The notes: a model not told the origin generated them from the sequence alone. DNA of 21,951 nucleotides from a virus (IMGVR_UViG_3300034044_000012:1-21951); one strand, 5' to 3'. Counted from the first letter of the stretch, positions 8,080-20,449 are shown. Numbers and translations are program-made.

Positions 8080-9267
8080 ATGGCTTTTGCAACATCAGAC
8101 CAAACCGAACTCCGGTACATCAAAGAGACTAACTGGGGAACTACTCCCACTACGGGCAATCTTACAGTTCTTCGTTACAAGGGCGAGAGCCTTAACGCCA
8201 ACATTGAGACTACGGTTTCTGAGGAAATTCGGGCTGACAGGGCGACAGCGGATTTGACCCCTGTTGGTCAATCTGCTGGAGGCTCAGTAGATTTCGAGTT
8301 GAGCTTTGGAGCTTTCGACGACCTGATTGAAGGCGCGTTGTTCAGTTCTTTCTCTGCGGATCTCAACATTGTTGGGGTTGCAGGGGATATTACTGCCGAT
8401 AGCGCAGCCTCCAAGTTCACGTCAACTACTACGACAAAGTTCGATTCTATCACTGTAGGACAGTGGATCGAGGTTCGAGGTTTCACTGCGAACAGCGGCG
8501 AGAACAACGGGTACTACAGAGTTGTAGCTGCGACCCCCGGAACTGGCGAGATTACTGTCTCTCCGGCACCTAAGTCCACAGAGACTCCGGCTGGCACTGC
8601 GGCTGAGATTCATGGCCAGATGCTGCGGAACGGCGTCACTCCACAGTCGTTCACCTTGCAGAAGCGGTTCTTGGATGCAACCCCAGTAACGTATCAGAAC
8701 TTTGCGGGCAGTATGGTTTCTGGGATGACTCTGAGCTATGAGGTTGGGTCCATTCTGACAGGCTCTTTCGAGTTCCTGTGTAAAGAGGGGCTGATGACCA
8801 CTACGGCCCTCCCCGGTTTGACTGACACCCCCGCACCGAGTAACGAGGTGTTGAACGCCGTATCCAACCTTACGGACATCAGAGTTAATGATACTGTTTC
8901 GTCAAAGAGTTTCCTGACGCTTGGCCTTGAGATCGGCAACAACCTCCGTGGCCAGAAGGCTATTGGTTCTTTGGCCAACGTAGGTGTAGGTGCGGGCAAG
9001 CTGGACGTTAGCGGTCCCATCAGCGTCTACTTCCAAGACAAGACAGAGTTTGATCTGTTCAGCGCAGGAACGGCGTTCTCTTTAAGTTTCCGTTTGCAGG
9101 ATTCTGCTGGAAACGCATATATCTTCACTTTTCCGAGAGTGAAGTATGAATCTTTGACGGTGGCTGCATCTGGTCAGAACAACGACCTGTTGGCAGAAGG
9201 GCAGTGGAGAGCGATCCTCGATCCTGTCACTTCAGCTATGGTTCAAATTGACAAGTTTGTTGCCTAA
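8080..9267 (+). CDS. Major tail tube protein
   Basis: This 395-aa protein is the likely subunit of the tail tube. It opens with a typical tail-tube N-terminus (sensing segments TELRYIKETNWGTTP and LTVLRYKGESLNANIET), and SAGGSVDFELSFGAFDDLIE follows, as in the common siphophage tube family. Residues about 96-165 look like a separate small beta domain inserted in the tube core (TVGQWIEVRGF, NNGYYRVVAA, GEITVSPAP), which could project from the tail surface. The core then resumes (FTLQKRF, SGMTLSYEVGSILTGSFEF) and ends in strands that close the barrel. No sheath gene is adjacent, which supports a non-contractile tail. A branched RNA structure follows the stop. Confidence 0.82.
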   Translation: MAFATSDQTELRYIKETNWGTTPTTGNLTVLRYKGESLNANIETTVSEEIRADRATADLTPVGQSAGGSVDFELSFGAFDDLIEGALFSSFSADLNIVGVAGDITADSAASKFTSTTTTKFDSITVGQWIEVRGFTANSGENNGYYRVVAATPGTGEITVSPAPKSTETPAGTAAEIHGQMLRNGVTPQSFTLQKRFLDATPVTYQNFAGSMVSGMTLSYEVGSILTGSFEFLCKEGLMTTTALPGLTDTPAPSNEVLNAVSNLTDIRVNDTVSSKSFLTLGLEIGNNLRGQKAIGSLANVGVGAGKLDVSGPISVYFQDKTEFDLFSAGTAFSLSFRLQDSAGNAYIFTFPRVKYESLTVAASGQNNDLLAEGQWRAILDPVTSAMVQIDKFVA

Positions 9268-9275
9268 TGAGTTAT

Positions 9276-9335
9276 GGCTGGCGTAGGGTATTCCCGTCCT
9301 CTGGTGGCTCCGTCAGAGCGCCAGCCTCCTTTTAT
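9276..9335 (+). terminator. Branched (three-way junction) terminator-like structure after the tail tube gene
   Basis: GGCTGGCG (9276-9283) is perfectly complementary to CGCCAGCC (9319-9326), and a T-rich stretch (TCCTTTTATT) follows. The 35 bases enclosed contain two more hairpins: GGG/CCC around TATT (9286-9295), and CTCTGGTG/CGTCAGAG (9299-9318) with a GCTC loop and two G-U pairs. The result would be a three-way junction. It lies 8 bases after the tail tube stop, in the same relative place as the terminator after the capsid gene. A plain terminator would not need the two inner arms, so another structural role is possible. Confidence 0.65.
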
Positions 9336-9352
9336 TCACGGAGCCATGTAAC

Positions 9353-9360
9353 AACGGAGC
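9353..9360 (+). promoter_or_regulatory. AACGGAGC leader motif / ribosome binding site
   Basis: The octamer AACGGAGC is identical to the copy at 5356-5363 and lies 7 bases before ATG 9368. A near copy (CACGGAGCC) sits 16 bases upstream, followed directly by an ATG-TAA start-stop. Confidence 0.55.
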
Positions 9361-9367
9361 TAACCTT

Positions 9368-9844
9368 ATGAGTACATACGAAGAAAGACTGGATAAAGTC
9401 AAAGAGGAACAGACCTCGCCCAAGGGCTTTGACTTCAACAGGAGCTTTGCTACTGACACGAGAAAAGAAGTCGATGGCGCGTGGGCGGAGCTGAACATTG
9501 ATGGGCAGACCCTTGAGGTGCTTGTCGCCAGAGAAGGGAACCGCAGGTACAAATCCTACATGCGGGGGCTTTTGAAGCGTCACGAGCGTATCCTTCGCAG
9601 AGACGATGACAAAGCAAACGAGCTGTTCGAGCGTTTGGAGAACGAGGCTATCGCTCACACTATCCTTCTCGGTTGGAAAGACCTATACATCACCGAAGGT
9701 GGGGTGAAACGGAAAGCTGAGTACAGCCCGGAGCTGGCCCAAAAGCTGCTTGAATATCAGGATTTCAAGAAAGCTATCTTGGACCTCAGCTCTGACTTCA
9801 ACTTGTTCCGCGAGCAGCAGGACGAGGCCATCATAAAAAACTGA
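9368..9844 (+). CDS. Tail assembly chaperone (lambda gpG-like)
   Basis: This 158-aa helical protein corresponds in position and character to the shorter of the two tail assembly chaperones, which coat the tape measure and recruit tube subunits and are absent from the finished virion. After a charged N-terminus and a small beta part (AELNIDGQTLEVLVARE), long helices follow (MRGLLKRHERILRR, and the region with FERLENEAIAHTILLGWKDL), ending in SDFNLFREQQDEAIIKN. The last two sense codons are part of the slippery heptamer A AAA AAC, directly before TGA. That is the typical arrangement for a programmed -1 frameshift giving a longer G-T protein. It follows the tail tube gene and its terminator-like structure. 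Confidence 0.82.
   Translation: MSTYEERLDKVKEEQTSPKGFDFNRSFATDTRKEVDGAWAELNIDGQTLEVLVAREGNRRYKSYMRGLLKRHERILRRDDDKANELFERLENEAIAHTILLGWKDLYITEGGVKRKAEYSPELAQKLLEYQDFKKAILDLSSDFNLFREQQDEAIIKN
9835..9841 (+). promoter_or_regulatory. Programmed -1 ribosomal frameshift site, A AAA AAC
   Basis: A9835 AAA(9836-9838) AAC(9839-9841) is a canonical X XXY YYZ slippery heptamer in the chaperone frame, immediately before TGA 9842-9844. A one-base backward slip continues in the frame that stays open to 10185. Possible downstream stimulators are pairing of AGGAGG (9845-9850) with CCTCCT (9888-9893) and a GGGAC/GTCCC hairpin at 9875-9889. Confidence 0.85.
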
Positions 9845-10185
9845 AGGAGGTCTTGGAGTGGCAGCTAACCCTTGGGGACAAAGCGTCCCTCCTAGACAAA
9901 CTACAGGAGGTTAAGGGTGAGGATGTACCGATCCTCAAAACAGCGCCAAAGCTGCTTGACGACAGTATCTGGTACATGGCTGCTTTCCAAGACCTCAACT
10001 CCTGCCGTCCCCTAGGGGACGGCTGGTTTCCAATAACGGTTCAGGAGTTTTGCGAGTATTGCAAAATGATGGAAATAGAAGGGGATGAAAAGATTGACCT
10101 GTTTTACAAGGTTAAATACATGGACAACATTCTCCAAGAGTGGGTAGCAAAGCAGAGGAAAAAAGAACGGAGCAAAACAAGTTAG
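9841..10185 (+). CDS. Frameshift extension of the tail assembly chaperone (gpGT-like C-terminal part)
   Basis: This frame, entered by -1 slippage at 9835-9841, adds about 114 residues to the 158-aa chaperone and would give a fusion of about 272 aa. The extension holds the T-like domain, thought in lambda to bind the tail tube subunit. It has several helices (KASLLDKLQEVKG, LLDDSIWYMAAFQDLNS, TVQEFCEYCKMMEIEG, IDLFYKVKYMDNILQEWVAK) and a very basic C-terminal end. Independent initiation is unlikely: the first in-frame start-like codon is a TTG at 9853, only 2 bases after AGGAGG, too close for good initiation. A 20-bp perfect palindrome lies inside at 10004-10023. Confidence 0.82.
   Translation: MKEVLEWQLTLGDKASLLDKLQEVKGEDVPILKTAPKLLDDSIWYMAAFQDLNSCRPLGDGWFPITVQEFCEYCKMMEIEGDEKIDLFYKVKYMDNILQEWVAKQRKKERSKTS
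10004..10023. repeat. 20-bp perfect palindrome
   Basis: The two 10-base halves GCCGTCCCCT and AGGGGACGGC are exact reverse complements with no spacer, centred on CCTAGG. In RNA it can form an 8-bp GC-rich stem with a CTAG loop. It lies within the coding region of the chaperone extension and encodes CRPLGDG. Confidence 0.9.
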
Positions 10186-10202
10186 ATGGAAAGGCGAGGG
10201 TT

Positions 10203-10241
10203 TGTTATACTCTTTCCTTGAGTTCTTAATCTGGTATACAT
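10203..10241 (+). promoter_or_regulatory. Possible tandem extended -10 promoter elements
   Basis: TG-T-TATACT (10203-10211) and TG-G-TATACA (10232-10240) both match the extended -10 pattern (TGn then a TATAAT-like hexamer) in the 68-base gap between the chaperone extension and the 555-aa gene. The first has a weak -35 (TTAGAT, 10182-10187) 18 bases upstream. This is the only sizeable gap without an RNA hairpin in the tail region. Recognition by a sigma-70-type polymerase is inferred. Confidence 0.4.
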
Positions 10242-10253
10242 GAGGGTTTTAAG

Positions 10254-11921
10254 ATGGCACTAGTACCTGCGGATTGGTCGATCTCCTCCAGCGGCCTTAT
10301 AAGCTACATTGGTGACGCGCATGGGGGGGCATCTCCCTCGTATGCCACCGTACTTGAGTTGCACAGATGGCTTGAGGATTTGGCTGACGATGAAGCACCT
10401 ACCGGTGATGACCTCGTAGCCATTGTGAGTGACACGCCATCCGACAGGTCAACTGACAACATTATCACCCTCCTGCCGCCCTACACGATTGACGCTACTG
10501 CGGCGGAGCATCTGTACGATGGCTCTATCACGCAGGATAACGGCAACACTGTGTATTCTGGCCTTGTTGTTGTGGGCTCTACAGTTGCCGGGACACAGAT
10601 ACAAATTGTCCAGAATAACACCATCCTGCCGAACTACTGGGGAACTGGGCTAAACGCAGACCCAGCAAACAACATTCTGCTGAGAATTATGGTTCTCACC
10701 CGCACAGGCGGTGTTGATATTGATGGCAAGCGTCTAAGGGTACAAGCAAGAGAGCTTGGTGACACTTATGCAGAGTTCTCCCTTACAGCTGGATTGGGTA
10801 ACTCTACTGCGGCATTGTTCACCTCCACTGACTTGAACAACCAGACCTCTCCGGCAACTATCGCTTCTTGGACAGACATCACAGCCACTGAGGGTTATCA
10901 GGGCCTTGACGTTAATGGCGATTCTGTTAATGAGTATTACTACGTACAGTGGACGAAAGGATCAAGGTCGATAAACGACCTGTATGAAAGGGTCAAGTGG
11001 ATTCAGAGGAGAGGCACTTCGGAGGTTATCTTCGGCATGAACGGAGAGCTGTTCCGAGGTGTTACCCATGAAATCCCTTACGACACTCAAGACGCAGGCA
11101 CGACCTTCCAACAAAATGAAGTAGTAACCTTTGGTAACGGAGCTACAGCAGCCGTACTCGCGGATACTGAGGCTGGGGTTGACGGGGGCACCACAGGAAC
11201 CCTGTATGTGCAACTCCTAACTGGTGTTGCCCCATCCGACAATGACACAATTGTTGGCGGAACGTCTGGGACAAACGCGCTGGTTAATGGCACTCCAGTA
11301 TCCAGAGCAATCTCTCCGGAGGCCATAGGCACCTCTACAGGCTCCGCCATTATCGGGGCCTACGGCGTAGGCATAGCACCGTCCGACCTGACAGCATCAG
11401 ACCAGCTGTTTGACCTGAGCAACAACCTTGTTATCCCACCGAACAATGTCACCTTCTCGGTGAACGGTTTGGTAGCCGGGGAAGACAGGGTTCTCGTAAC
11501 TAACGACAATGGTGGCGGCATCGACTTCTCCCAGCTTACCTTGGCCTCAACTTTGACTGGCGGCGAAACAACTATCACAGTGAATGAGGTAATCCCCACA
11601 GATACTCCCCCTTCAGGCACGATCAGGGTGTTCGACGGAACCTCTTATATAAGGGTCACGTACACAGGGTTTAGCGGTTCCTCTTTCACCGGATGTTCTG
11701 GAACCCCTGCTGCGGCTCTTAATGCAAACGTGTTCATCTCTTACATTGACAAACTTGCAACAGCAACAACGGAGTCTTTCACAGTTGTATTTAACTCGCC
11801 AAGAACTCTGTTTATCCGTGTAAGGGACGGAGGAGTGACACCTATAAAGACCTTCCAGACTACGGGTACTTTGGGCAGCTCAGGCGGCTCTACTACAGTA
11901 ATCCGAACTTCTGACATATAA
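10254..11921 (+). CDS. Large beta-rich virion protein of the pre-tape-measure module, unknown function
   Basis: This 555-aa protein begins the seven-gene insert. I cannot name a family. It is Thr/Gly/Ser/Asn-rich with very few Cys, typical of phage surface proteins. The N-terminal 140 residues have a defined start (PADWSISSSGLISYIGD, LHRWLEDLADDE) and alternating strands. Residues about 140-275 appear to form a mixed domain with LRVQARELGDTYAEFSL and ERVKWIQRRGTSE. Residues about 285-350 resemble a small repeated beta motif (FQQNEVVTFGNGATAAV, then NDTIVGGTSGTNALVNG) of a kind seen in phage appendage proteins. The C-terminus is Ser/Thr-rich beta. GAGGG lies 7 bases before the ATG. Possible roles are a tail-side fibre or tail-surface protein. 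Confidence 0.6.
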   Translation: MALVPADWSISSSGLISYIGDAHGGASPSYATVLELHRWLEDLADDEAPTGDDLVAIVSDTPSDRSTDNIITLLPPYTIDATAAEHLYDGSITQDNGNTVYSGLVVVGSTVAGTQIQIVQNNTILPNYWGTGLNADPANNILLRIMVLTRTGGVDIDGKRLRVQARELGDTYAEFSLTAGLGNSTAALFTSTDLNNQTSPATIASWTDITATEGYQGLDVNGDSVNEYYYVQWTKGSRSINDLYERVKWIQRRGTSEVIFGMNGELFRGVTHEIPYDTQDAGTTFQQNEVVTFGNGATAAVLADTEAGVDGGTTGTLYVQLLTGVAPSDNDTIVGGTSGTNALVNGTPVSRAISPEAIGTSTGSAIIGAYGVGIAPSDLTASDQLFDLSNNLVIPPNNVTFSVNGLVAGEDRVLVTNDNGGGIDFSQLTLASTLTGGETTITVNEVIPTDTPPSGTIRVFDGTSYIRVTYTGFSGSSFTGCSGTPAAALNANVFISYIDKLATATTESFTVVFNSPRTLFIRVRDGGVTPIKTFQTTGTLGSSGGSTTVIRTSDI

Positions 11922-11932
11922 GGAGAAAGCTG

Positions 11933-12430
11933 ATGGCCATGGTAAACCTATTGAATAAAGCGGTACTAACACCGAGTTCTGGTGAGGGCGTAACTGGAAA
12001 TGGGATTTTCAGGCTCTACGAGTCTCCGGTGATCACAAACCAGAATAGAAATTCTCTTGAAGTGACTATTGACTACGGAGATCCCATCCCGGACCCGTTG
12101 GTTGGCGGGACAAATTTCAGACTCACAGCTTGGCTTGAAACCCTTGACGATTCTGGAAATGCTTATGTGTTCCACAATCAGTTTGAGACTTATGTAGCTC
12201 GCCAGCAGGGTAACGTCCACAGGATGATTATGGAGCCGGGTCTGTTTGTACTGGACGAGGGCGTTGTAGTTGATATGTGGAATGGCCAAGAGGTTATTGC
12301 TAGGGAGTCAAAGAAGGGTGGGGTTACACCTGATAATTTTCGGGTTGTAATCGCGCTTATAGAAAATGGGTTTGAGACTTCCGGGGCTTTCCAAAGTATT
12401 GAGGTTTCTGCAAGCTACCGAATTTATTAA
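11933..12430 (+). CDS. Beta-rich virion-associated protein, unknown function
   Basis: This 165-aa protein is predicted almost entirely beta, with strands such as GIFRLYESPVI, SLEVTIDYGD, FRLTAWLETLDD, ETYVARQQ, GLFVLDEGVVVDMWNG and a last pair FRVVIALIENG / QSIEVSASYRIY. That pattern suggests a single jelly-roll or Ig-like sandwich. The start is clear: AAGGAG overlaps the end of the upstream gene and the ATG follows at about 7 bases. It sits between two large beta-rich proteins of the insert and may be a partner or cap of one of them. I recognise no motif giving a specific function. Confidence 0.6.
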   Translation: MAMVNLLNKAVLTPSSGEGVTGNGIFRLYESPVITNQNRNSLEVTIDYGDPIPDPLVGGTNFRLTAWLETLDDSGNAYVFHNQFETYVARQQGNVHRMIMEPGLFVLDEGVVVDMWNGQEVIARESKKGGVTPDNFRVVIALIENGFETSGAFQSIEVSASYRIY

Positions 12431-12460
12431 GGGGCTGCTGAACCCAACTAGGAGGAAGGC

Positions 12461-14095
12461 ATGGCAGTTCCTGTAGTTGCCACCCTTAACGTAACTCGTG
12501 TTGAGGATTCGGAATCTGACATTGGGTGGGCCTCTATTGGAGGCGGCCCCGGAGGGGCCGCCGAACCCTCGTTCGCTTACCAAGGAAGTAACCTTTTTAA
12601 CCGTAAGGTAACCTCGTCTACAGGTGCCGGGTTCTACTATACTCCAACCTTGGATTCTGGGTCGCCCTTAGATATGACAACGGCACCCAACACTACGTTG
12701 ATGGTGAAGTGCGCCGTAACCGACTATTCAGGTCTACAGCCCACAAACGGTGTTAGGATAAGGATAGGCTCGTCAAGTTCTGCGTACAGAGAGTACGTAA
12801 TTGCTGGCAGCTTGGCTAAGAAAACAACGTACTCTGAGTACCCTCAAAGAGGGGGGGTTTTGATTGTCCCCATAGACCCAAATTTGCTCTGGGCCTATGA
12901 CTCGGTTTCGGGAAGTCCCAACTTTTCATCAGTAAACTATTACGGGATGTTGGCTGCGTTTACGGTCAGCCAAGCGAAATCCGAGAACGTGGGCCTTGAC
13001 GCTTTGGATGTTGGGGAGGGGCTGGTTATTACCGGGGGTGGCGGAGCAGACCCTTCCGGGAGTTTCGGAGACTTCTTCACCTTCGATGAGGGCACACCAA
13101 ACAACAGGTATGGGTTTTTCACAAAACTCGCTGAGGGGGTGTACAGAGCGTTTGGCACTCTGGAAGTTGGGGACGGAGTTACTTCGACCGACTTTTACTC
13201 ATCTGGAGAAACTGTACTGTTTTACGACGGGTATTTTGCAGATGGGTGGTCTAAAGTCTTGATTAACCTATCTGGCCCAACTACTGCGAGCATCACTAAT
13301 AGCACTCTAAAGAGCCTAGGCTCTATAACCTCTGGCTCTGACACTAGGGCGGATTTAATAGTACAAGGCACCACAGGGACGCTGTTTTTGAGCGGGACAG
13401 TTGAAGGGTTCAGACGGATAGCCTTCACCTCAGCTTGCACGGTTGATGGGGCGGTTTTGTCTGCTTCTGAGATAGACGATGGGGGCGCGACTATAACGCT
13501 GTCAACCATCGAAACTCTCCAGACGAGCTTGGATACGGCAACTATGGTTGACCCGAATTTTGCCAACATTACGAGCTGTACTTTCACTAACTCTGCCACT
13601 TCCACCCACGCAATCAAGATAACCATACCGGGAGTGTATACCCTTGATGCTCTAAAGTTTCTAGGGTATGGGGCAGATGGCAGCAGCAACTCTGCCATCC
13701 TCAATGATTCTGGCGGTTCAGTCACAATAAACATTGTCAATGGCGGGGACACTCCCACTGTAACTAACGGCACAGGGGCCAGCACTACCGTCAATAATGC
13801 AGTGAACATCAGCATTAAAGTCCTTGATGCCAAAACAAAATCTCCAATAGCTGGAGCAAGAGTTTTTATTGAGACTGACACAGGAGGGCCAGAGGCGGCA
13901 GGGACCGTACTTGTAAACACTGTATCTGATGCCAGCGGGAGCGTTACTTTTGCCTACAATTATTTGGGCGACCAGCCAATCTTAGGCAAAGTGAGGAAGG
14001 CAAGCTCTCCTCCGTACTACAAGCCTAATCAGTTTTCGTCTACCATTACAGCTTCAGGGGTTTCTCTAAACATTTTGATGATTGAGGACCAGTAG
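12461..14095 (+). CDS. Beta-helix-like fibre protein with C-terminal carboxypeptidase-regulatory-like domain
   Basis: This 544-aa protein starts after AGGAGG. Residues 1-180 form a beta domain, and a Gly-rich linker (GGGGADPSGSFGDFF) lies near 190-205. Residues about 280-445 show repeated short Thr/Ser/Val strands and turns (SITNSTLKSLGSI, ANITSCTFTNSAT, GGSVTINIVNGG) like a right-handed parallel beta-helix. Residues about 446-544 look like a carboxypeptidase-regulatory/Ig-type domain: ISIKVLDAKTKSPIAGARVF, then TVSDASGSVTFAY, and a final hydrophobic strand (GVSLNILMIED). Beta-helices in phage appendages often bind or cleave surface polysaccharide; no catalytic residues can be assigned here. 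A very stable hairpin lies in the first 100 bases of the gene. Role inferred: tail-associated fibre or adhesin. Confidence 0.62.
   Translation: MAVPVVATLNVTRVEDSESDIGWASIGGGPGGAAEPSFAYQGSNLFNRKVTSSTGAGFYYTPTLDSGSPLDMTTAPNTTLMVKCAVTDYSGLQPTNGVRIRIGSSSSAYREYVIAGSLAKKTTYSEYPQRGGVLIVPIDPNLLWAYDSVSGSPNFSSVNYYGMLAAFTVSQAKSENVGLDALDVGEGLVITGGGGADPSGSFGDFFTFDEGTPNNRYGFFTKLAEGVYRAFGTLEVGDGVTSTDFYSSGETVLFYDGYFADGWSKVLINLSGPTTASITNSTLKSLGSITSGSDTRADLIVQGTTGTLFLSGTVEGFRRIAFTSACTVDGAVLSASEIDDGGATITLSTIETLQTSLDTATMVDPNFANITSCTFTNSATSTHAIKITIPGVYTLDALKFLGYGADGSSNSAILNDSGGSVTINIVNGGDTPTVTNGTGASTTVNNAVNISIKVLDAKTKSPIAGARVFIETDTGGPEAAGTVLVNTVSDASGSVTFAYNYLGDQPILGKVRKASSPPYYKPNQFSSTITASGVSLNILMIEDQ
12542..12562 (+). 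repeat. 9-bp GC inverted repeat forming a strong intragenic hairpin
   Basis: GGCGGCCCC (12542-12550) and GGGGCCGCC (12554-12562) are perfectly complementary around a GGA loop, about 80 bases after the start codon of the 544-aa gene. It encodes a Gly/Pro/Ala turn (GGGPGGAAE). There is no T tract, so it is not a standard terminator. Confidence 0.85.
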
Positions 14096-14113
14096 GCTAG
14101 GAGAGGTTTACCC

Positions 14114-14407
14114 ATGAAAGAATTTGAAAGCATGAGGAAGATGATCTCCTCCAGCCCAAGAGCCCCAGAGACTGATATGCTCACTGTTTTGAACACTATA
14201 GAGGCATCGTACAATGGACTCTGGAGGCGCTTGAAGTCGCTACAAGACCAAGTAGTTGCTGGCGGGGAGATGGTCGAGTCCTACAAGGCCATGTATGAAC
14301 AGGAGAAGAAAAAATCTTTGGCGTATTTAACCATGGTGCGTAAGATGGAAGAAGTTACATCCGCCATGGCCAGAAACTGCGGTACAGGGGCAACGACAGA
14401 GGAATGA
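14114..14407 (+). CDS. Small coiled-coil protein, unknown function
   Basis: This 97-aa protein has a long helix over residues about 20-88 with heptad-like hydrophobic spacing (MLTVLNTIEASYNGLWRRL, then QVVAGGEMVESYKAMYEQ, and LAYLTMVRKMEEVTSAMA). A short disordered tail (GTGATTEE) follows. It could form a coiled-coil dimer or trimer. TAGGAGAGG supplies the ribosome site. It lies between the beta-helix-like gene and the conserved 148-aa gene. Possible jobs are trimerising a fibre, acting as a fibre chaperone, or forming a rod; none can be chosen from sequence. A scaffold role in head assembly is unlikely this far into the tail block. Confidence 0.6.
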   Translation: MKEFESMRKMISSSPRAPETDMLTVLNTIEASYNGLWRRLKSLQDQVVAGGEMVESYKAMYEQEKKKSLAYLTMVRKMEEVTSAMARNCGTGATTEE

Positions 14408-14410
14408 CAA

Positions 14411-14857
14411 TTGGCTATAACTGTAGATTGGGTGAACAAGGTCGTTTTCATACCAGAAGCGGATCTAACCCCTAATGGGGTGGACCCAATATCTGGTAGG
14501 GCTTTGTATACCCTTGATACAGAGGCTTTCCGGAGAGAAGTAAAGGCTCTTGAGGCCAGCCCATCAGGTCTTACTTACCCTGACATTATAGCCCACAACA
14601 CTGAGGTATCTGTATCCGGTGTAACAATTGCAAGGGTGATCGTTATTGTTAATGGCTACAGTGTTGAGTTCGAGGACGGGACTTACGCGGTTACGCTTAC
14701 CGGCTCAAACAACAATATCGCTGACGTAGCTGTAGTCAACCAAGTTTCCATACGTCCCACAAACACAGCTGGACTTGTTTCTGCGGGCGGGGCAGCTGCT
14801 ATAACTGAGCAAGACAAAGATGATATAGCAACAAAAGTTTGGAATTACACACAATGA
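14411..14857 (+). CDS. Conserved phage protein of unknown function (TTG start)
   Basis: This 148-aa protein has a layout I have seen in many siphophages without a known role. The opening is DWVNKVVFIPEADLT-like. A helix follows (DTEAFRREVKALEAS), then a PDIIAHNTEVSVSGVTIARV segment, a strand pair (GYSVEFEDGTYAVTLTGSNN), and IADVAVVNQVSIRPTNTAGL near the end. Family membership is recalled, not searched. TTG 14411 is chosen because AGAGGA at 14398-14403 lies 7 bases upstream and no ATG is in frame there. It overlaps the next gene by ATGA. The C-terminal end (ITEQDKDDIATKVWNYTQ) is a helix of the kind that joins a trimeric or appendage protein to its partner. Confidence 0.68.
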   Translation: MAITVDWVNKVVFIPEADLTPNGVDPISGRALYTLDTEAFRREVKALEASPSGLTYPDIIAHNTEVSVSGVTIARVIVIVNGYSVEFEDGTYAVTLTGSNNNIADVAVVNQVSIRPTNTAGLVSAGGAAAITEQDKDDIATKVWNYTQ

Positions 14858-15114
14858 GTACGGCATGGGAACTTTTACAGCAGGCAAGTAGGGTAGACTC
14901 AGGAACTGCATGGGACCTCGCCCAAAGTCTGGTTTATGTCAATGAAGTTAAAGGGTTTGATGTTTCCGTAGCTGTTGCTGAGGTAGAAACAGTGGTAGAA
15001 TCAGTAACAGTTACTGCATCTATTGACCTTTCAGAGGTGGAGGTGGTTGTTGATACCTCTGAAACTGTGGTGCAGGTGTCGGAGGGTGAGATGGGAGCTG
15101 GGGTATGCACGTAA
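14854..15114 (+). CDS. Val/Glu-rich small protein, unknown function
   Basis: This 86-aa protein starts at ATG 14854, overlapping the previous TGA. A TTG 15 bases upstream is a weaker choice. Residues 1-35 form a helical head (TAWELLQQASRVDSGTAWDL). The rest is unusual: VEVVVDTSETVVQVSE and related segments alternate Val with Glu/Thr/Ser, so one face is hydrophobic and the other acidic, as in a long beta strand stack. There is one Cys, next to last. No strong ribosome site is visible, so translation probably depends on coupling to the previous gene. It overlaps the next gene by 10 bases. Function is unknown. Close linkage with two recognisable virion-type genes suggests a structural or chaperone role. 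Confidence 0.5.
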   Translation: MSTAWELLQQASRVDSGTAWDLAQSLVYVNEVKGFDVSVAVAEVETVVESVTVTASIDLSEVEVVVDTSETVVQVSEGEMGAGVCT

Positions 15115-15443
15115 CCAAAGAAGAAGTCCACAGGTTTAGGAAGGACACTTACCCATTCAAAATTGTTGTAAAGGACAAGGGTACAGGTGCCCCCCTCAAC
15201 GTGACTGGCAACACTTTTACGCTTTCAGTGTCTACTGAGAATGCACCTTCCACAGCTTCTTACGTGTTTCAATCCACAGGGGTAATAACAGACGCTGTTA
15301 ATGGCAAAGTCTCTTTCCCCATGTCTGCTTCTGACGTTGACAGGGTAGGAACCTACTATTTTGACGTTGTAATGGATACAGGAACTGAAAGGACTACCAT
15401 ACTTAGAGGGATATTGGAGTTTGAAGAAAGCATAACCAAGTGA
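15105..15443 (+). CDS. BppU-N-terminal-like Ig domain protein
   Basis: This 112-aa protein resembles the N-terminal domain of baseplate upper protein BppU and similar tail-attachment domains: FRKDTYPFKIVVKDKGTG, then PLNVTGNTFTLSVSTE, a VTGTVTDA-like segment (TGVITDAVNGKVSFPMS), and SDVDRVGTYYFDVVMDTG. In lactococcal phages such domains anchor receptor-binding assemblies to the tail tip. Here the domain stands alone, so it may be an adaptor attaching other proteins of this module. GGGAG lies 7 bases before the ATG, and the first 10 bases overlap the previous gene. The family is recognised by pattern and recall; the attachment role is inferred. Confidence 0.65.
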   Translation: MHVTKEEVHRFRKDTYPFKIVVKDKGTGAPLNVTGNTFTLSVSTENAPSTASYVFQSTGVITDAVNGKVSFPMSASDVDRVGTYYFDVVMDTGTERTTILRGILEFEESITK

Positions 15444-15457
15444 ACTAAGGTAATTTA

Positions 15458-18400
15458 ATGGCCATTAACTTCGTCATAGACACTACAGGTGCAGTAAAGG
15501 CTCTCAAGGAGGTTGAGGGGGCGCTTGATTCTGTAGAGAAGAAGGCGGAGAAGGCTTATGAGGCCATGCAGAAAGCCTTTGGCGGCGCACAGTCTAAAGG
15601 CAGTTCTTCTGTAAAAGAACGCAAGGAAGAAGCGTTGGGCATGGTTGAGGCTCTGGACCGACAGACAGCCTCGATTAAGAATTTGCTGGCAAAGCAGCAG
15701 GATGAGATAAGCATAATGCTTAAACTGGCCTCTGCTGCGAAGAAGCTGTCTGAAGCCCAGAAGGAATCCACTGCCGGGGAACAGAGTGTAATAGACAAAC
15801 TCAGGGCGCGTATAAAGGGCCAAGCTGAGCTTGCGAACGCCACTAGGGAGTTGGTTCTCTCTGGGGATAAGTCAGTAATAGCCGATCTCAAAGCCATAGA
15901 GGTTGGTAAGAAGTTCTCCGCGATACTCAGAGAGAGGATGGCGATCCTAGGGGAGTTGAAGGCAAGGAAGGAGGCTGACCTTGTTATCACCAACCAGTCA
16001 ACTTTAGCCGCACTACGTAAAGTATCCGCAGAGAAAGAGCTTGAGCGGATAGAGAAATCCTTGGCCACTACAAAAGGCACAAGGTTTGCTCTGCAAGGGA
16101 ACAAAGACACAGCGGTTGAATTGGCCACTGAGAAGGCCAGAGAGTCAGACATCCGCAGGCTGATACAGGCTGAGGGTGAGCTTGCCGCGCTGAAGTCGAA
16201 GCGGGCTAGGGCGTCCTTGCGTGCTACAGAGGTCGCGCAACAGGAAGTAAGGACAATACGTGAAGAAGCAAGAGCCTCCGCATCGTTGAAGGTAGCCATA
16301 GAGGACTTGGCCAAAGGCAAGGACTCCCTGATCAGGAAGCAGATAGTTGCAAGCACTCGCACCAAGAATTTGAGGGACGCGCTAAGGGCCGAGATTGAAG
16401 CCACAGACAAGTCCGTGATCTCATCGAGGAGGCGGCTTGAGGTCGCTAAGTTGATGAACTCCCTGAAACAGAAGGAGCTGGAGCTTGAGGCTCAGCTGAA
16501 AGTTTCCAAGGAGCGTTTGGCATCTGGGGCTGCGGCTAAGACAGCTAAGGAGTTGAGAGAGTTGGAGATCCTCCGGCTCAAGGAAGCGCAGATGGTCAAG
16601 TTGGCAAAGCTGGAGGCTTTGCAGGTGGTCCAGAACGACAAGGCATCTGCGGCCATACGCAAGAAAATATCAGAACTTGAGAGGGAACTTGGGGTGATGA
16701 AGAAAACCACCACAGGGTCTCAGAGGAGTAGGGCTGAGATTTCCGCGTGGGCTGCGGCTAATAAGAAAGCCGCAGTATTCGCCGCCGAGTTCAGAGCTGC
16801 GCTCAACGCTTTGGGCCTAGGCTTTGGTATCTTCACCGGCAGTACGATTATCGCGGCTACAGCGATCTTTGGTATTGTGCGGGCAATTCGCGGGGTCATA
16901 GAGTCTGGAACTAAATTTGAGTTTACGATGGACAGGGCCAAAGCGGTTATGTCGGCAACAGCTTCTGAGTCTCTAAGGCTGGATTCTGAAGTAAAAAGGC
17001 TGGCAAAAACCACCGTGTTCACGGCAAACGAAGTTTCCGAGGGTCTTGTGTTCCTTGGTATGGCTGGCTTCAACACCAACGAGGCGCTCCTTGCCCTTGA
17101 CCCCACGCTCAAGCTCGCACAGATCGGCATGGTGGATATGGCGCAGGCTGCCGACCAAGTGACAAACATCATGGCGGCGTTTGGCGTTTCCGCAGCGGGT
17201 ATTTCTGAAGTTGTAGATAAGTTGTCTGTAGTTGTTACGAGCAGTAACACCTCCATGAGTCAATTGGCTCAAGCCATCTCCTTTGTTGGCCCAGCAGCAG
17301 CGGAAACCGCTACGTCTCTGGATGAAGTCGCTGCGATTATCGGGGTGTTTGCAAACAGGGGCGTAAAAGCATCCCGCGCTGGTACTGCTTTGCGAAGGGG
17401 TATAGCAAACTTGGCCAACCCTACACAAAAAGTGCGAGATCGCCTTTCAAAGTTGGGCGTAGTGGTTCAGGGAGTCGACGGTCGGATGAGGTCTATGAAG
17501 GACATTCTCATTGACTTAGCCGACTCTGGTGCCACAGTAAACGACATCTTCTCCATCTTTGGTACAAGAGCAGGACCAACTTTTGCTGGAGCGATATTGA
17601 GTGGCAAGGAAGAACTTGTTTCGCTTCTTGAAAAGATTGAGAACACCAAGGATGCTGCGAAGGGTTTGCAGGAAAAATTGCAGGACAATGTGTGGACAGA
17701 GTTCAAACTTGTAGTTTCTGCGATAACAGATGTAGCCATTAAGCTATATGAGAGGCTTCAAGGGCCGTTAAGAGCAGCTCTGGTTCTAGTGAAAAACACC
17801 TTCATAACTCTTTCTGAGAACGTAGATAAAGTTGCTTTTGCTTTTAAGGTTTTACTGACTTTTGGGCTTTTTAAGCTGGCTAAAGGGCTTCGCTCCCTAG
17901 CTGTTGGGGCCATGAGAGATTATATTTCCTCGATTACAGTGGCAAACCTCAGAACAGCTAAGTTCGTCCCTATAGCTGAGGCTGCCGCAACCCAAGGTCT
18001 GGCCCCTTTATCTACGGCAATGAGGACAGCAACAGCATCTACGAGTGCATTAAACGTGGCGCTCAGGGCTGGCAAGGCGCTGCTGAGGACGTTCCTACCC
18101 TTTGCAGTAATAGCCACCATTTGGGAACTTGTGGATGCTTTCGACAACTACGATGAAGCTGCTAGACGGGCGAAGAAGACCACCTCTGAATTGTTGCCCG
18201 TCCTCAAAGACCTAAAGGAGCTTGGCAAGGGTGGGAACGCTGTAAAATCAGCCATTGATATTGCCTCCGAGGACCCTTCAAAGGCTTTGGAGAAAGCAAT
18301 CAGCGACTCTGAGAGCGTAGGGCAAGTATTCCAGAAAGCTATAAAGGCTAGGGAAGACCTGAAGGCCAGTTTGGAGCGAGCCAAGGTAAAACAAACGGCG

Positions 18401-20449
18401 GCCTTGGCCTTAGGAACTCTGTTTGGTTTTGACACTAGAGCGACCATGAAGGAGATTTCAGAAACCCAGCAGAAGCTAAAAGTTGTAGACTCTCAGCTGG
18501 ATAAACTGTACACGGCTATGGAGGCTATCGGGGAGAAGTCTCTTAACTCCACCGTTGCACAGCTTAGGGAGGAAAATCGGCAGAAGAAGGTGGCTGAAGA
18601 AGCTGAGGCGAAACGCAGAGAGGCTATAAAGTCGCTTAAAAGCAACTACCAAAAGAGCGTAGATGAGTTTCTGGACCTCCTCGGCCTTGTCACTGGGCAA
18701 AAAGAAAACCTTGTAGAAAGGCTGAAAACCCAAGCAACCATACAGCAGAAAGAGTTCAATGACGCTATAACCCTTATGTTGTCTGGGGGCGACCTCGCAG
18801 CCACCAGAGGGAAGATAAAAGCGCAGGAAACCCTCGACGTTTTGAAGGCTTTGGCGAAAGAGGCGAAGGACAGAAGGGACGCTGTGAGGGAATTTGTGAT
18901 CTCCGAAATAAGGAAGAACGTAAAGAGTAACACTGAGGCAAAACGCCTGTTCCTGAGTACCCTAGAAGCTACAGGGAATGTCAATAAAGCCTTGGCTGAA
19001 GCCAACAAAACTGGGGCTATATCGGACATAGAGGAGTTCAAGGGGGCACTCCTTCAGAAGATCAACGACCAGCTTAACCTCAGCGCAAAAGATTTTGACA
19101 ACTTTGACCAGTTCATCTCGTTTTACGAGAATCTGTCGAAAGCTGCTGGCACACTTGGCGAGAGGGCGAAACGGGCTCAAGACAAACTTAGGGATGCTTT
19201 CAGCACATTGAGTGCGAGAAATTTGGTGGAATTCACAGACAGTGCCCTGAATGCTGAGAAGGACAAGCTCAAAGCAACTCTCAAGGCGCTTGAGGATACC
19301 ACCAACAACGCTATTGACATCCTGCGCCAACGCTTCGATGCTGGGCTTATCAATGTTGATGAGGTTGTGAGCGAGGCGTCTAGGATACAGAGGTCGGCCT
19401 TGTCTGAATCCAAGGCGGCGTATGAGGAAGAACGCACCGTCATAGAGTTTAATATACGCAGGCTCGAAGAAAGGCTTACCTTGGTGTCGGAAGATGCCAA
19501 AGCAACAAAAACTCTGACCGCTGCATTGAAGCGTCAGAAGAAGGCTCTGGATAGCGTCAATTCGGCCATACAGCAGATTAGTGTTTCTCAGGGCACTGTA
19601 GAAGAAACTGCCATAATTGACACGTTAAACAAAGGCATAAGGTCAATAAGCAGATACAATCTTGGCTTGGAGACGCAGGTTGAGTCCTACAAGGACCTTC
19701 AGGACAGGGTGGGTAGGGCCACAAAAATGTATAACGCGAACAGGGAAGCCCTCGAACAGTTGGCAGAAACAGGAGGAACCGAGGAGGTTCGCAATCTGGC
19801 TAAGGAGTTCCTCTTGCTGCTCAAGACTGCATCTAAAACAGAAAAGCAGTTGGTTGCCTTGCAGTTATCTTGGCAGCCTAAAGACATGGCGCAGGAAGCA
19901 GTCTCTGCTGCAACTAAGATGGGCGATGCGTTTACCGAGTTCTTCATAGACCCGACCCTTGATGGTCTGGAGAGGTTGGAAAACGCTTTCCTCAATCTTG
20001 TCAAGCAGATCATAGCGCAGAACATCACAAACGCGCTTTTCAAGACAAAAGACAAAGGCGGGTTTGGCTTTGGTGATTTTTTCACCGGGCTATTTAAAAT
20101 TGGGCAAGACTCCAATAAATCAACAAACTCAGATGCTATAAAGGTTGGGTCTGGTGGAAGTTCAAAAACTTTCAACAGTCCTAAACTGACAGGTATATCT
20201 TCTGGGAGTATTGGTGGGGCTACTGCCGTAACCCCAACTGGTGTCGTTGTTCCTGACACGACGTTTATAAAGCCTACCAATGGTTCTGAAGGCGCAGGCG
20301 CACCGATAGTCAACAATTTCTACATCACCGTAGGGGATGTGGCTGATAAAGGGTTTGTTCGCCAAGAGATCCAGAGGAGCATAGACATCTCCGTGGCTAA
20401 GGTGGCTGACCAACAACAGAGAAGAAAGAAACCCCTAGGAGTGAGGTAA
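15458..20449 (+). CDS. Tape measure protein
   Basis: This 1663-aa protein sets tail length and is expelled during DNA injection. Residues 1-440 are a long Ala/Lys/Glu/Leu coiled coil. A Gly/Ile/Ala hydrophobic segment follows at about 448-478 (FGIFTGSTIIAATAIFGIV). Residues about 480-690 match the TP901-type tape-measure core, with AKTTVFTANEVSEGLVFLGM, MAGFNTNEALL and ANRGVKASRAGTALRRGIANL. Two further hydrophobic segments lie near 789-810 and 870-895. More coiled coil follows to about 1540, and the C-terminus ends in a Gly/Ser/Thr-rich linker and a basic segment (VDQQQRRKKPLGVR-like). Arginine codons are mostly AGG/AGA. The ATG follows TAAGG. At the usual rule of about 0.15 nm per residue the tail would be near 250 nm. 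Confidence 0.9.
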   Translation: MAINFVIDTTGAVKALKEVEGALDSVEKKAEKAYEAMQKAFGGAQSKGSSSVKERKEEALGMVEALDRQTASIKNLLAKQQDEISIMLKLASAAKKLSEAQKESTAGEQSVIDKLRARIKGQAELANATRELVLSGDKSVIADLKAIEVGKKFSAILRERMAILGELKARKEADLVITNQSTLAALRKVSAEKELERIEKSLATTKGTRFALQGNKDTAVELATEKARESDIRRLIQAEGELAALKSKRARASLRATEVAQQEVRTIREEARASASLKVAIEDLAKGKDSLIRKQIVASTRTKNLRDALRAEIEATDKSVISSRRRLEVAKLMNSLKQKELELEAQLKVSKERLASGAAAKTAKELRELEILRLKEAQMVKLAKLEALQVVQNDKASAAIRKKISELERELGVMKKTTTGSQRSRAEISAWAAANKKAAVFAAEFRAALNALGLGFGIFTGSTIIAATAIFGIVRAIRGVIESGTKFEFTMDRAKAVMSATASESLRLDSEVKRLAKTTVFTANEVSEGLVFLGMAGFNTNEALLALDPTLKLAQIGMVDMAQAADQVTNIMAAFGVSAAGISEVVDKLSVVVTSSNTSMSQLAQAISFVGPAAAETATSLDEVAAIIGVFANRGVKASRAGTALRRGIANLANPTQKVRDRLSKLGVVVQGVDGRMRSMKDILIDLADSGATVNDIFSIFGTRAGPTFAGAILSGKEELVSLLEKIENTKDAAKGLQEKLQDNVWTEFKLVVSAITDVAIKLYERLQGPLRAALVLVKNTFITLSENVDKVAFAFKVLLTFGLFKLAKGLRSLAVGAMRDYISSITVANLRTAKFVPIAEAAATQGLAPLSTAMRTATASTSALNVALRAGKALLRTFLPFAVIATIWELVDAFDNYDEAARRAKKTTSELLPVLKDLKELGKGGNAVKSAIDIASEDPSKALEKAISDSESVGQVFQKAIKAREDLKASLERAKVKQTAALALGTLFGFDTRATMKEISETQQKLKVVDSQLDKLYTAMEAIGEKSLNSTVAQLREENRQKKVAEEAEAKRREAIKSLKSNYQKSVDEFLDLLGLVTGQKENLVERLKTQATIQQKEFNDAITLMLSGGDLAATRGKIKAQETLDVLKALAKEAKDRRDAVREFVISEIRKNVKSNTEAKRLFLSTLEATGNVNKALAEANKTGAISDIEEFKGALLQKINDQLNLSAKDFDNFDQFISFYENLSKAAGTLGERAKRAQDKLRDAFSTLSARNLVEFTDSALNAEKDKLKATLKALEDTTNNAIDILRQRFDAGLINVDEVVSEASRIQRSALSESKAAYEEERTVIEFNIRRLEERLTLVSEDAKATKTLTAALKRQKKALDSVNSAIQQISVSQGTVEETAIIDTLNKGIRSISRYNLGLETQVESYKDLQDRVGRATKMYNANREALEQLAETGGTEEVRNLAKEFLLLLKTASKTEKQLVALQLSWQPKDMAQEAVSAATKMGDAFTEFFIDPTLDGLERLENAFLNLVKQIIAQNITNALFKTKDKGGFGFGDFFTGLFKIGQDSNKSTNSDAIKVGSGGSSKTFNSPKLTGISSGSIGGATAVTPTGVVVPDTTFIKPTNGSEGAGAPIVNNFYITVGDVADKGFVRQEIQRSIDISVAKVADQQQRRKKPLGVR

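Follow-up and report, generated by a model that had tools for sequence, protein, structure and literature searches.

A mobile gene cassette between the tail chaperone and tape measure genes of an uncultured phage: a possible second type of the Syn5 horn cassette

Results

The window analyzed here, meaning the whole stretch of DNA at its length of 21,951 bases, is a complete virus record. On its plus strand lie two tail assembly chaperone genes, TAC1 (9368-9844) and TAC2 (9853-10185), which match phrog_313/8233/3817 and Phage_TAC_18, and a tape measure gene (15458-20449; 1663 aa) that was matched by 879 phage records; a tail tube gene (Phage_tube_2, E = 3.5e-42) is also found on the chaperone side. 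Family searches agreed with the initial annotation, which had named the chaperone pair and the tape measure as the flanks. The interval from TAC2 to the tape measure gene holds seven ORFs on the plus strand, with the lengths given there: P1 (10254-11921; 555 aa), P2 (11933-12430; 165 aa), P3 (12461-14095; 544 aa), P4 (14114-14407; 97 aa), P5 (14411-14857; 148 aa, from a TTG start), P6 (14854-15114; 86 aa from an ATG, or 91 aa if an upstream TTG is used as the start), and P7 (15105-15443; 112 aa). Both of the overlaps that had been described are present in the sequence, namely an ATGA common to P5 and P6 at 14854-14857 and 10 bases common to P6 and P7 at 15105-15114.

This insert of 5.2 kb breaks the lambda-type tail order, in which the tape measure gene comes right after the chaperones, both in the window and in contig G001 (which is also L004/L011/L107), where the same seven genes are found (identity to the window of 83% for P1, 65% for P3, and 79% for P7). 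In L054/L105 and L010, related tails whose tube and chaperone genes are homologous to those of the window, the chaperone gene directly adjoins the tape measure gene, and in Pseudomonas phage Lana the tape measure follows the chaperone with nothing between them. Because these phages have no insert at this site and G001 carries all of it, we regard the insert as real and lineage specific. Its GC content was unremarkable. The genes had also been credited with a possible promoter of their own, but no sigma-70-like site was found on the plus strand of 9200-15600, and the minus strand of the same region held 1 such site versus 5.4 expected by chance. On this result we discarded the idea of a separate transcription unit under a sigma-70 promoter of the insert's own; the insert is probably transcribed together with the late genes.

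Searches of P1 to P6 against Pfam and PHROG returned nothing useful, and profiles of P1, P3, and P5 found nothing among PDB sequences. The AlphaFold2 model of P1 (pLDDT 91) depicts a multidomain beta protein, for which Foldseek gave weak partial Ig, pilin, and barrel matches only. In this predicted model, residues 270 to 351 weakly match a barrel, and a C-terminal CnaB/pilin-like Ig domain, likewise a weak match, is made up of residues from about 397 to 411 and from 499 to 555, with an OB-like domain (residues 412 to 498) inserted in it. The OB-like domain superposes on JBD30 distal tail protein gp49 (8rk3_D; Z 5.9, 79 residues, rmsd 2.4) and, with a Z of 5.2, on a tail tip chain of phage Chi (8vjh_B), over 78 to 79 residues in the two cases; both Z values are under 8, a level that common arrangements also reach. 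The matched part of 8rk3_D is OB domain V of the JBD30 distal tail protein (PMC11445458). The likeness to these tail proteins is that of one common small domain, and the architecture as a whole is not shared. A beta-helix-like protein had been expected in the mix; the predicted model of P1 gives no sign of a beta-helix, which fits P3 and the long variants of P5 better.

P3 consists of a variable body and a conserved C terminus, which in the window spans about residues 441 to 544. Among the loci described below, P3 bodies include matches to Laminin_G_3, Big_1, and beta-helix families, with lectin-like Laminin_G_3 domains in one P3. The C-terminal domain is common to P1 and P3 (hhalign E = 4.5e-9), and an HMM of the P3 tail also picks up many P1 proteins. 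P5 (AlphaFold2 model, pLDDT 89) is conserved, in the alignment of its homologues, over an N-terminal domain some 125 residues long; its C terminus varies and in long homologues carries additional beta-helix-like repeats. Foldseek matched the P5 model to nothing in the PDB and, in BFVD, to three proteins of uncultured viruses only. P4 is a predicted coiled coil. P7 matched phrog_1084 (E = 2.5e-12) and, at 22.1 bits, lay just under the Pfam cutoff of 23.1 for BppU_N (PF10651), for which its L010 homologue scored 25.8 bits. The L010 protein thus matches the BppU_N/phrog_1084 baseplate upper-fiber adaptor and P7 resembles it; the likeness to that system is confined to this small adaptor, and a BppU-type fiber is absent here. 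The beta-rich, coiled-coil, and BppU_N-like products expected of the insert, which are typical of an appendage, were found.

About 100 P1-type loci were analyzed by gene clustering and HMMs. The gene order was P1-P3-P5 in 59 loci and P3-P1-P5 in 13. Where the contig left room (at least 3 kb before and at least 6 kb after P1; 48 nonredundant loci), P3 was present in 48/48 loci and P5 in 47/48, all on the same strand and beside TerL, portal, capsid, or tail genes in phages that differ widely, these loci not being phylogenetically independent. Conversely, loci seeded with P5 contained P1 in every case but L002, whose contig stops there. Just before P5, most loci have a same-strand ORF of 60 to 103 aa, usually with strong heptads, like P4. 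P1, P3, P4 (the coiled coil), and P5 make up a conserved same-strand cassette, and the co-occurrence of P1, P3, and P5 is far beyond chance. In all, P1 is encoded by at least 267 IMG/VR contigs.

The remaining genes are less constant companions. P2, an accessory ORF, has a clear homologue only in L004/L011 (69.7% identity), and no other relatives were found in the viral contigs or phage records searched; the Val/Glu-rich P6 is 60% identical in L107, the same contig G001, and was not found elsewhere. Judged by these searches, P2 and P6 occur in the window and G001 only and are not core genes. A minority of loci encode a P7-like BppU_N protein after P5; in L010, L036, and L046 the gene resembling P7 lies no more than about 320 bases beyond P5. 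The suggestion that the seven genes form one unit is thus upheld for P1, P3, and P5, which travel together, and not for P2 and P6, which the window shares with its closest relative only.

The cassette moves: its place differs from one related phage to the next. A run of TerL, portal, S49 protease, decoration, and MCP genes is syntenic in the window, L025, and L006; the cassette lies after TAC in the window, after MCP in L025, and before TerL in L006. Identity to the window at P1 (64% in L025 and 37% in L006) is out of step with identity at the portal (49% and 47%, respectively). Elsewhere the cassette sits between portal and capsid genes (L069 and L062) or beside replication-type genes (L012). 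The phages that carry it also differ in type: contractile sheath genes are present on the cassette contigs of L009 and L012, a PF10145 tape measure on eight further cassette contigs, and in L003 the context is podovirus-like. The podovirus marker PF12236 had no match anywhere, controls included, and was uninformative.

By tblastn against 50,697 phage records, P3 matched only Virus Rctr197k, whose protein Rctr197k_179 aligned with the body of the window P3 (32%, E = 6e-30). The gene before Rctr197k_179 encodes a homologue of Syn5 gp53 and the gene after it a homologue of Syn5 gp55, and in Syn5 itself the order is gp52-gp53-gp54-gp55. Profile-profile comparison matched P1 to the gp53 family (probability 91%, E = 1.1e-6) and P5 to the gp55 family (probability 86%, E = 4.8e-6), with unrelated families below 1%; these are remote matches with one-against-one E values, covering about 174 to 227 columns for P1-gp53 and 82 for P5-gp55. 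Direct BLAST reached gp53 only via L098, L013, and L044 (E = 3e-10 for the P1-type protein of L098), and gp54 matched the P3-type protein of L020 (E = 2e-27). Other gp54-type bodies also aligned directly with P3-type bodies, namely S-TIP28_57 with the P3 of L016 (40% over about 600 aa, E = 6e-109), ctPCi537 with the P3-type body of L049 (E = 6e-157), and Panino 98, from a gp53-type Maribacter phage, with that of L057 (E = 8e-108). The window P3 had no significant direct match to Syn5 gp54 (hhalign 5%), and this link runs via intermediates. These comparisons identify P1 as a distant homologue of gp53 and P5 as one of gp55, and they place P3 in the gp54 position, with bodies common to P3 and gp54-type proteins.

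The likeness to the Syn5/S-TIP28 (Voetvirus) horn cassette extends to the gene order and to the C terminus shared by core and body protein, which is seen in both cassette types. In addition, gp52-like proteins are encoded in nine P1-type loci, in 9/9 at most two genes upstream of the cassette. The two types differ in the presumed docking end, which is CnaB-like and ending D-E in the P1 type and R-x-Y-x-N in the Syn5 type. The P1-type cassette further differs in having a coiled-coil gene ahead of P5, OB-like and barrel domains that P1 has in addition to what gp53 has, and another genome position; it occurs in tailed phages of several types.

Proteins like gp53 were found in at least 278 contigs and proteins like gp55 in at least 194, with gp53 present in 43/43 gp55-seeded loci with room. 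At strict cutoffs, no locus contained a mixed pair (gp53 with P5 or gp55 with P1); borderline cases were L098, with a gp53/P1-like protein, and L016/L017, with a weakly gp55-like adaptor. The bodies, on the other hand, cross between the types: 82 of the 92 P3-type bodies from gp53-type loci had a homologous body in the P1-type set. These cross-type alignments start at residue 1 and stop a median of 79/93 residues before the C termini, whereas within-type alignments, used as a control, reach to a median of 1/1 residues from the C termini. The P1-type tail domain was detected in 0/92 gp53-type bodies versus 79/91 P1-type bodies, the latter figure being partly by construction (the tail HMM was made from P1-type proteins), which does not apply to the 0/92 or to the alignment break. 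An R-x-Y ending was present in 76/92 gp53-type bodies versus 1/91 P1-type bodies. In the window, P1 ends in RTSDI and P3 in MIEDQ; because the R-x-Y-x-N ending is absent, we place the window cassette as a sister type and not as a subtype of the Syn5 (gp53/gp55) cassette. In these alignments, each cassette type has its own version of the last 80 to 90 residues of the bodies, similar to the C terminus of the core protein of that type, P1 or gp53. This suggests that the C-terminal end docks the body onto its core. The simplest reading would be that bodies have been swapped between the two cores, each with the docking domain of the core that it joined.

Discussion

To our knowledge, the Syn5 horn has been described from one cyanophage group only and has not been assigned a function. 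Immunogold labeling by Raytcheva et al. (J Virol, 2014) reportedly located both gp53 and gp54 to the horn, and infection was reportedly not blocked by antibodies against the two proteins. The horn sits on the vertex opposite the tail (PMC10575957). We propose, with a probability of roughly two in three, that the insert is a mobile virion-appendage cassette of a second type beside the Syn5 gp53-gp54-gp55 horn cassette, and that it entered the window between the chaperone and tape measure genes. Homology, synteny, and the tail switch are what we observe, and from here on we infer position on the virion and function. P1 and P5 would form a core or base, onto which P3 would dock by its matching C-terminal domain, while the coiled coil (P4) and P7 might act as spacers or adaptors. 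Displayed outward, and perhaps binding glycans, would be the N-terminal body of P3, which is variable, and in some P5 proteins the long C terminus. The cassette products would decorate the virion, most likely its head, as in Syn5, and the displayed bodies, some of them lectin-like, suggest adherence to surfaces or glycans.

The genes had been interpreted as a single tail appendage, and a tail-bound receptor-binding structure, such as a side fiber or baseplate arm, is the main rival to the horn reading; the Syn5 relatives would then be an exceptional case in which such proteins were taken over by the capsid. Of this interpretation the single unit stands, and the tail assignment is not supported. 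It is true that the window cassette lies inside the tail module, between TAC and TMP, and that P7 is BppU_N-like, but across loci the cassette is independent of tail type and often placed among head or packaging genes, both of which a capsid appendage would explain, and in L012 it lies among replication-type genes. Tail-like features are also found around and within the cassette: collagen-like tail-fiber proteins are encoded just upstream of P1 in several loci, one neighbor weakly resembles the podophage GP4 fiber-tail adaptor Gp77, Laminin_G_3 occurs in one P3, and residues 412 to 498 of P1 are weakly like the JBD30 OB domain (PMC11445458). Against these stands homology to capsid horn proteins, and because of this Syn5 link, we consider a purely tail-borne appendage less likely.

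It is also conceivable that the cassette is a moron-like gene set whose product is not a virion part but an adhesin that is produced in the course of infection and secreted or carried on the cell surface. The mobility of the cassette, its position away from structural genes in L012, and the weak pilin- and CnaB-like fold matches of P1 would suit such a role; however, most loci are embedded in a late structural operon and the homologues gp53/gp54 and S-TIP28_56/57 are annotated as structural proteins, which makes the adhesin a very improbable explanation. Finally, a chance gathering of unrelated accessory genes at a recombination-tolerant site, with which the lineage specificity of P2 and P6 would agree, is refuted for P1, P3, P4, and P5 by the joint presence of P1, P3, and P5 in 47/48 loci and of gp53 and gp55 in 43/43, and hardly any weight is left to it.

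With the cassette taken as a horn cassette, the P1 type would be its undescribed second type, and horn-type cassettes would be common and modular. We put at even odds the broader idea that horns on capsids form a mobile class of phage appendage that is found widely. There would be at least two cores, P1/P5 and gp53/gp55, which exclude each other but draw their interchangeable displayed proteins from a common pool, and a swap of the C-terminal docking domain would direct a body to the other core. Related cassettes are found in hundreds of unrelated uncultured phages with podovirus-like, contractile, and noncontractile tails, and in contigs binned with Patescibacteria, so that what had passed for a peculiarity of the marine phage Syn5 may be widespread. 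A testable rule is proposed as well, namely that a displayed protein joins the core specified by its C-terminal domain. Such a rule would open horn function to experiment and would give a name to a large block of unannotated virion genes that have no useful Pfam or PHROG entry.

As for distribution, P1 and P5 had no tblastn match in the 50,697 phage records; the absence of P1 is only mildly significant, because the low rate in IMG/VR predicts few matches. Among 84,980 species genomes, P1 had 13 matches, all in MAGs, several of them Patescibacteria, and these may be free phage contigs.

The profile of gp53, the Syn5 horn protein to which the core protein P1 is distantly homologous, also matched a 642-aa P1-like protein of locus L098 (E value of 4e-14), and this protein is a possible evolutionary intermediate between the P1 and gp53 cores. 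At L098:7259-9187, on a contig binned as Shapirobacteria, one cassette has two P1-like proteins, of which the 642-aa protein is one. Unusually long P1 homologs (737 to 959 aa) were observed in Patescibacteria-binned contigs (L099, L100, L101, and L104).

L016 is the sole locus with at least 3 kb before and 6 kb after P1 that lacks the adaptor P5. In its place is a 241-aa protein (L016:9209-9934) with weak likeness to the Syn5 protein gp55 (E value of 9e-5), and both P1 and P3 of this locus bear the P1-type, CnaB-like tail. In the window, P5 starts with TTG at 14411, 3 bases past the stop of the predicted coiled-coil gene P4, and the two may therefore be translationally coupled.

In the 1232-aa P3 of L030 (L030:11696-15394), two stretches match Laminin_G_3, a ConA-like lectin domain, and the C terminus resembles CarboxypepD_reg; this protein gives the clearest hint that P3 bodies bind sugars.

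About a dozen loci encode a collagen-like (GXY repeat), tail-fiber-type protein ahead of the cassette, immediately 5' of P1 (L069:4376-5077 and equivalents). Its C-terminal region resembles a protein of ctPCi537 whose gene lies a short way upstream of that genome's gp53-type cassette. The cassette at L012:1323-6613 lies among genes that by eye look like replication/recombination genes (SbcCD-like), distant from the sheath gene of the same 159-kb contig.
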